Shown piece by piece: positions 7,444 through 10,400 of a stretch of DNA of 64,000 bases. This stretch comes from a bacterium (GTDB lineage Bacteria; Desulfobacterota; Binatia; DP-6): positions 1,767,237-1,831,236 of the forward strand of contig JAHCID010000001.1 of the NCBI GenBank assembly GCA_026129405.1. Reading direction: 5' to 3'. How positions within the stretch are numbered: position 1 is the stretch's first letter; each line of letters opens with the position of its first letter. The notes below the pieces were generated by a model that was given only the letters and a program-made list of their open reading frames with translations, made no database searches and was not told the DNA's origin. The translations under genes and the position numbers were made by a program.

Positions 7444-10400
7444 TCACTCAAGGAACGCGCCGCTCGGCGAGCCGCCGCCGGGGACGGCCGGGCACGCGCC
7501 GGGGGCCGGGCTCTTCGAGCGCGCGATGAACTTGTCGACGGTGTCGCTCTTCGCCGTCGACGGCGGGTTGCCGCTCGCCTTCGCGGGCGCGTCGGCGCAC
7601 CAGCCCTCGCCGTCGCCGGTCGTGAGGCGCAGCGCGACGCGGCCCTGCTGGGCTTCGTCGAGCGTGTAGCCGAACGCGGCCTTGCCGCCCTTCACGCTGA
7701 GGCTGTCGGCCTTCAGCACGACCGCGGTGATGGCTCCGGTCTTGTCGCGGTAGCGCCAGCCGCCGGCGCCGATGCGGGTCCAGCCCGCGGACGGGAGGGT
7801 GACCGTCACGGCGTCGGTGGTGAGGCCGGCGCCGTTATAGACGACGAGCGTGGCGCCGTGCAGCGAGGGATCGGCGCTGCCGCCCGGCGCGGGCGCCACG
7901 ATGCGGTGGCCCGGCGCGTCGGCCTTCGTCGACGACTTGAACGACAGCTTGCGCTTGGCGGGGTTGGCCGGCGGCGCGCTGCGGTCCTTCAGCGTCAGCT
8001 TGGTGGTCTGGATGAGCACCGGATCGGGCGCCCCGGGGAAGCTGAGCGGGTCCGCCGGGTCGGTGCCCGCGTCGAGCTCGTCGCGGTCGCGGACGCCGTC
8101 CAGGTCACGGTCGATGCCGGCGCGCTGGCCGTTGCCCGGCGGCACGCAGGTGTAGGTGAGCGACTGGCCGGCCGTGGTCGCGAGGCCGCGCACCTGGGCG
8201 TCGGTGAGCGGCGTTTCGGCGGCGCGGTCCGACTCGAAGAGGCCCGAGGGGCGCCGCACCGAGCCGCGCGCCTCGCCGGCGACGACGCCCTTCACCACGA
8301 GGTCGCAGTCGCCCGCCGCCGCGCGCGCGATGAGGAGGTTGATGCGCGCGCCGACGGTCGCGGCGTTCGTCTGCGTCAGCGTCACCTGCTGGCCGACGAT
8401 GGGACGCAGGTTGGAGTCGAACTCCATCATGAACTGGTCCATCTGCTGCGACTGGGCGAGCGTCAGGTTGAAGACGACGGCGCGGTGGAAGCGCACCAGC
8501 GTGTCGGTGCTGCCGTCGTGCAGGAAGCCGAAGCCGCGGATCTGGTCGCCCATGAAGCCGTTGTTCTCGGCGCGGAAGAACGACACCGCCGGCATGCCGA
8601 ACATGCCGACCTTCTGGTACATGTTCCGCAGGTGCGGGATCTTCATCATCTGCGGCTCGTTCTCGAAGGTGGTGAAGCCGTCGGTGCCGAAGAAGCCCTG
8701 GGCCTCGTTGAGGACGTGGCAGCCGTTGCAGTCGAAGATCGCGTCGGTGATCGGGCCGAAGTAGTTGTTGCGGCCGGCCTGCGCCGCCGCCGACAGGGTG
8801 TTGTCGAGCGGGCGGATCGGGTTCGGCGGGTAGGTCACCTGGAGGATGAAGTTCGTGAAGCGGTTCATGTCGGCGTCGCTGATCGGACCGTTGCGCCCGA
8901 GGAGTCCCTCGAACGCGGGCAGGAACTTCTTGAACGCCTGCTCCTCGTTCAGCGGGTCGCCGCCCGGGTCGTTGCCGCCGGTACGGTCGCCGCGCCAGTG
9001 CATCGGGCCGTGGTTCGCCATGCCGCGCAGGCTCTGCGTCGTCATCGGCCCCTTCAGCGGGTGGAAGTCGGGATCGACGCCGGGCACGCGGATCGGGTTC
9101 GGGTTGTTGAGGTAGGTGTCGTCGGGGTTGCCGAGGTCCCACGCCAGCGAGTCGAGGTCGCCGAAGACGTGGCACGAGGCGCACGACGCCTCGCCGTTCG
9201 ACGACGTCGCGCGCGCGTCGTAGAGCACCGGCCGGCCGAGCTTCACCGACGCGGGCTCGGGGTTGTGCAGCGACGTCCGCTGCGACTCGGTGCGCGTCCC
9301 GAGGTCGACCACCGACACCGCGTTGTCGAAGCGCGTCAGCACGTAGAGGCGGTTGCGGGCCTCGTCGAGCACGAGCCCGCTCGGACCGCCGCCCGTCAGG
9401 GCGATGTGGTCGGCCGCGTCGGGCACGAACGTGTCGTTCTCGAGCGCCGCCGTCTGGAAGACGCCGATCTTCGCCGAGCTGAAGGCGGCCACGTAGAGCC
9501 GCGTGCCGGCGGCGTTCACCGCCATGCCGAGCGGCGTCGCGAGGCTCTTCTCCTTCACGCCGGCGGGGCTCGGCACGACGTGGTAGTCGATGTGCTTGTT
9601 CAGGTGGCGCGGGATCACGTTGGCGCCGTCGAGCACGGTGATGCGCGACTCGTGCAGGTGCCCCTCGACCGTCGTGCTGCCGAAGAACGTGCCCGGCCCC
9701 TCGAAGCGCACCTCGTTCTTCGCCTCGGTGTTGGTGACGTAGACCTTCCCGTTCGCCGGGTTCACCGCCATGTTGAAGAGGACCGTGCCGACGTGGGCGA
9801 ACGTGCCGGTCTGCGCGGGCGGGTTCGCGTTCGCGTCGATGCGGAAGACGTCGAGGTCGGGCAGCGAGAAGCGCACGGCGTTGTTCCAGTTGCGGCCGAG
9901 CTCGTCCTGCCACTGGCCGGCACCCTGGTTCCACTTGACGATGAGGCCGACCTCGCGCTGCGGGATGCCCTGGAAGTTCGTGTTCGGCGCCGGCAGGCCG
10001 CCCGGCATGGTGAAGCCGCCGACGTTGCACGGTGCGGCCGTGGCGCCGCCGTTGCAGACGAGGCCCTCGGAGAGCGTCGTGGTCTGGTTGCCGGAGTGGA
10101 AGACCGCGGCGTAGACGGTGCTGCCGTCGGGCGTCGCCGCGAGCGCGCGCGGCGTGTCGCCGAAGAGCGACAGCACCGTGAGCGGCGTGCCGGTCAGCGT
10201 CGCGCCGAGATTGGCGGCGTCGAAGACGAAGACGTCGGCGCGGCCGACGCCCGGGGTCTGGAGCTGCGGGTTCACCGGGCTGTTCTGACCGCGGTGCGCC
10301 GTCGTGATGAACGCGCGGCCGTTGCCCGGGCCGCCGAAGACGATGTCGCGCGGCTCGTCGCCGACCAGCAGCGTGCGCACGACGCGCGGCGGATTCGCCG

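Follow-up and report, generated by a model that had tools for sequence, protein, structure and literature searches.

The question raised by this locus is whether three exported proteins of different architecture, encoded within one stretch of a Binatia genome, carry one and the same domain, and what such a domain would do for them. The stretch, called the window below, comprises 64,000 nucleotides. A sequence-only reading of it had singled out, from short shared motifs, a recurrent beta-rich and possibly undescribed domain. Binatia are largely uncultured, and we know of no study of how their enzymes are arranged outside the cell.

The first host (7444-10713, minus strand) is an exported beta-propeller/di-haem protein of 1089 residues. 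It matches the Pfam model Lactonase (E 3.9e-6), YVTN repeats (E 3.6e-13) and, below that model's cut-off, CCP_MauG (E 9e-4). The domain forms its C-terminal part and is placed by the profile at 7489-8016 on the minus strand (domain E 2e-45; E 2.6e-46 in the search of its own genome), so that the originally proposed limits of 7470-8010 are essentially correct. The second host (16048-17739, minus strand) has 563 residues, is likewise exported, and carries two MopE-type motifs; Cu-binding_MopE (PF11617) matches it in two stretches (E 6.1e-11), with the best motif at residues 239-256. Here the domain stands directly behind the signal peptide (17161-17676, minus strand; domain E 3e-43), and a Thr-rich linker (17038-17154, minus strand) leads from it to the MopE-type motifs. 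The third host (34918-35487, plus strand) is an exported protein of 189 residues that consists of the domain alone (34984-35436, plus strand; domain E 6e-39), and it has no match in Pfam or NCBIfam. Beside it lies a small reading frame on the minus strand (33564-34172) that by eye resembles a REP-associated (Y1-type) transposase.

All the motifs on which the proposal was based are found in the three translations and fall into the same columns of an alignment of 27 copies. They are a first strand (KLTLKD, KLQVKN and KLQLKE in the three hosts), a second one (KRKLSF, KRKITG and KQKLLF), a DP..GA.L stretch, an aromatic Y strand, G-A/P, LK and the final Cys; common to the 27 aligned copies are DP, W, G-A-x-L, L-K and the final Cys. 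In pairwise BLASTP, the C-terminal segment of the first host matches the lone protein over the whole domain with E = 9e-8, and the MopE N-terminal segment matches each of these two with E = 0.004. Searches of the genome with single segments recovered 10, 13 and 14 places, the query itself included. To guard against circularity, three profiles, one per class of copy, were run on the other classes and on 2,700 shuffled sequences, the best of which reached 2e-3. With the profile of the C-terminal class, the lone copy scores 1.8e-7 and the MopE copy 3.1e-5; with that of the MopE type, the C-terminal copy scores 7.6e-5. The weakest direct link, between the MopE type and the lone protein, is about 0.009 and is strongly bridged by intermediates. 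Profile matches thus join all three segments, and on the strength of these comparisons the segments are one domain family, with the MopE copy joined more weakly. A chance origin of the shared motifs is rejected on the basis of the class-specific profiles and the shuffled sequences.

We now consider the fold, which was predicted for two of the three copies, the C-terminal one being joined to them by sequence. AlphaFold2 gives a mean pLDDT of 95.5 and a pTM of 0.90 for the lone protein, and a mean pLDDT of 91.9 for the MopE N-terminal copy. In both models the order of elements is alike, namely two strands, a short helix and ten strands, and the two divergent copies agree on a beta-sandwich. The expectation of one common fold is therefore borne out for the two copies modelled, while for the third the case is made by the alignment. 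The nearest solved structures are weak neighbors. Foldseek against the PDB gives best E values of 0.036 and 0.019 for the two models, and VIA-align gives best Z scores of 6.4 and 5.5, which is the range of common arrangements below Z 8. Among these neighbors are SgrA (Z 6.4), domains of MtrC and OmcA, and the archaellum stator proteins FlaF/FlaG. The latter are among the best solved neighbors of both models (Z 4.9-5.6, rmsd 3.2-3.9, 95-106 residues aligned), but with Z below 8 and no sequence relation found the likeness is at most one of common arrangement, and no fold family is claimed. The viral fold library gave no match with E < 0.001.

The terminal Cys is present in 25 rows of the alignment, and each of these has a partner Cys at one, and only one, of two alternative columns, column 194 in 21 of the 25 and column 175 in the other 4. 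This pattern predicts a conserved disulphide that closes the domain and would be formed in an oxidising compartment. A separate subfamily has four Cys residues and a K-W-K-W start (PDxxDxLxWKW; loci L118, L123-L128 and L131), and it forms a group of its own on the domain tree.

The domain is new to the libraries that we searched. When 27 copies were scanned singly against Pfam-A and NCBIfam, no convincing match was obtained; the weak matches that did occur were confined to single copies, the best being DUF7092 in Pfam (E 7.4e-4, 1 of 27) and one of E 0.013 in NCBIfam. The C-terminal segment of the first host has no match in either library, so that no named domain is common to the three. A profile search of PDB sequences gave nothing significant (best E 0.068), and Pfam CBM families match neither the copies nor 40 host reading frames. 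The second host resembles Methylococcus MopE, a secreted copper-binding protein, in having PF11617 motifs that adjoin the domain, but these lie outside it: no such motif was found inside the domain, which covers residues 22-193 and is followed by the motif at 239-256, and the domain is no part of PF11617. MopE is already in the literature (PMC3423442). A literature search on Binatota, one query of which was dominated by unrelated papers, found no paper on such a domain. What we describe is thus an all-beta accessory domain of about 150-180 residues, a beta-sandwich with one predicted disulphide, previously unnamed in the libraries searched.

It is also far more common than the three initial cases suggested. 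The domain profile matches the 5.6-Mb genome at 58 places with E no higher than 0.1, and the fetched stretches contain 55 reading frames with one copy each, most of them with a signal-peptide-like start by a crude rule. The copy is C-terminal in 36 of these, directly behind the signal peptide in 14 and alone in 3; in the remaining 2 it is preceded by 77-114 residues with an ambiguous start, which probably places them in the N-terminal class. The proposal that the domain is used alone and at either end is accordingly upheld, and so is the view of it as a mobile module expanded in this lineage, given the roughly 55 copies and a domain tree on which subfamilies mostly keep one end and several end switches are needed. 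Within the class Binatia the domain occurs in 56 of 148 genomes, many with at least 20 copies, and in the other classes of the same phylum in 0 of 143 sampled genomes; in both scans at most 24 candidates per genome were scored, and weak copies may be missed. A single-protein scan adds relatives with the domain that include 'Candidatus Binatia' and lake 'Deltaproteobacteria' MAGs, and the plasmids searched gave no match to the domain. One locus (L147, G000 C4:128393-128536) encodes a 48-residue remnant like the end of the domain, followed by a GSPSGAFL tail, and is apparently a decayed copy.

The hosts are as unrelated throughout the genome as they are in the window. Their Pfam matches include Lactonase-type propellers (with weak di-haem peroxidase matches), MopE, glucose/sorbosone dehydrogenase (GSDH), HtaA, exo/endo-phosphatase, GDSL lipase, BD-FAE/carboxylesterase, NosD/beta-helix, DUF3604, PhoD, disintegrin-like repeats, PETase, S15 peptidase and trypsin. 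With at least ten host families and more than one position, the domain has the character of a mobile accessory domain. Opposite ends are used even within one host family, in GSDH proteins (L104 and L134) and in the propellers (L117 and the rest). Moreover, a protein of the Pseudoalteromonas plasmid pTML1 (L186, 1438-4479) matches residues 26-876 of the first host with 44% identity. This gammaproteobacterial homologue stops 15 residues after the match, before the domain, which indicates that the core of the first host exists without it. The unrelated chemistry of the hosts argues against a function, catalytic or substrate-specific, that all copies would share.

A property that does recur is charge. 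The domain has a mean pI of 10.1, with 6.4% Lys and 6.5% Asp+Glu, whereas what is left of these frames, taken as the longer flank, has a mean pI of 5.8, with 0.9% Lys and 9.6% Asp+Glu; in several fetched frames this remainder extends upstream of the true start, and the comparison is distorted for those rows. The paired Wilcoxon test gives p of about 1e-8 for both Lys and net charge, a value that overstates independence since the copies are homologous. In 34 further pairs, drawn from other genomes of the class and from the named relatives, the pI is 9.7 for the domain and 4.8 for the rest. Two C-terminal copies are exceptions in not being strongly basic (L132, pI 5.3; L137, pI 8.1). Despite the caveats on frames and independence, the contrast between a basic domain and mostly acidic hosts is consistent.

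We turn to what the domain may do. The reading that we favor, with a probability of about 0.4, is that the basic domain keeps otherwise acidic enzymes in place on an anionic surface, either that of the cell or that of its matrix. Binatia would fuse one copy to either end of a Sec-exported protein, which would be exported by Sec and then probably cross the outer membrane, for which the genome encodes a GspD-type secretin. The basic domain, folded and closed by the predicted disulphide of its terminal Cys, would dock on an anionic surface, putatively LPS, capsule or exopolysaccharide, and the docking would keep the acidic, soluble enzyme near the cell. The sequence-only reading had suggested a surface or adhesion module. 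Of this, surface retention is favored by the export signals, the basic charge and the placement, all 55 of the 55 copies being single and 53 of them at one end. Counting against it, the three stand-alone copies carry no cargo to anchor, and the nearest solved folds are weak matches. The main rival is that the domain targets its host for secretion: export machinery such as a type II system would detect the folded domain, at whichever end of the cargo it lies, and carry the cargo over the outer membrane, with no retention involved. The GspD-type secretin, a match above its cut-off, counts in favor of this reading as well. One copy per protein, placed at an end and joined to cargo of unrelated kinds, fits a sorting determinant, and the stand-alone copies would then be minimal substrates. 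Known sorting domains, however, are usually found at one fixed end, unlike the present one, and a targeting role does not need a consistently basic charge; we consider it somewhat unlikely. A parallel is given by the C-terminal sorting domains of the type IX system (T9SS) of Bacteroidota, which are small beta-sandwiches borne by numerous unrelated cargo proteins that a single lineage exports. The Binatia domain differs in that it is about twice as long, strongly basic and without any such Pfam or NCBIfam match, and 14 of its 55 copies, probably with 2 more, are behind the signal peptide rather than at the C-terminus. A search of the genome for the T9SS translocon protein SprA gave no match, and the control genomes were silent as well.

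CBMs, which are beta-sandwich modules found at one end or the other of various exported enzymes, suggest another option, in which the domain would bind carbohydrate or particles and bring its enzymes to external substrates such as plant polymers, humic material, minerals or polyesters. Many hosts are indeed hydrolases (PETase-like, carboxylesterase, lipase, phosphatase, protease), and anionic polymers could bind a basic surface. The di-haem propeller, MopE-like and DUF3604 hosts, on the other hand, share no obvious substrate. The domain also differs from CBMs in matching no CBM or other named family, in being always single and in having hosts that are not mainly glycoside hydrolases, and we judge this role improbable. 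Retention at an anionic surface agrees better than substrate binding with what is observed, namely single copies at the ends of unrelated cargo and a basic sandwich joined to mostly acidic enzymes. The domain could, finally, be a neutral cap for folding or stability, or could serve to recruit one partner for all hosts, such as the stand-alone copies, with no surface role. The confidently predicted fold and the existence of a core without the domain would agree with a neutral cap, but some 55 copies on unrelated hosts and a charge pattern that recurs argue for a positive function in common, and we judge this last option improbable as well.

Whichever role applies, a large share of the exported proteome is marked by this one undescribed domain, which about 55 proteins carry. 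Many 'hypothetical' proteins thereby acquire a shared property that can be tested, and the domain would merit a Pfam entry of its own. The charge hypothesis behind surface retention can be tested with one expressed copy, for which the 189-residue stand-alone protein is suited.

There is also a second recurrent element, distinct from the domain, although some proteins have both. It was first noted at the ends of the first host and its paralogue; in the first host it reads GSPSGAFLE (7447-7473, minus strand; located by pattern searches). The general form is GS-[PA]-S-x-AF-[LV], often extended by D-x4-LL[DE] (AFLD-x4-LL[DE]). The strict pattern has 10 sites in the whole genome and the reversed pattern 0; all 10 sites lie at protein ends, with a stop codon no more than 8 residues further on, and the proteins concerned are mostly unrelated. 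A second pattern adds the ends ASPSGAFLE and ASPSGAFLD. Across the class, the tail is concentrated in two families (f1 and f73), where reversed-pattern matches are scarce, and 23 of 27 readable sites are at most 20 residues from the stop. Among the papers listed in a literature search, none contained the string SPSGAF. One may speculate that the domain and the tail are two address labels of a lineage-specific surface-display system, with the basic beta-sandwich at either end of some proteins and a GS-x-S-x-AFL tail recognised by a putative receptor, protease or ligase, but we regard this as unlikely. The tail-bearing exported proteins (L139-L148, L180, L185 and L189-L216) include Cys-rich, di-haem and Thr-rich proteins and, by eye, pectinacetylesterase-like ones. 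The end of the stand-alone protein in the window, SSAMGAFVH, bears a weak resemblance to this tail.
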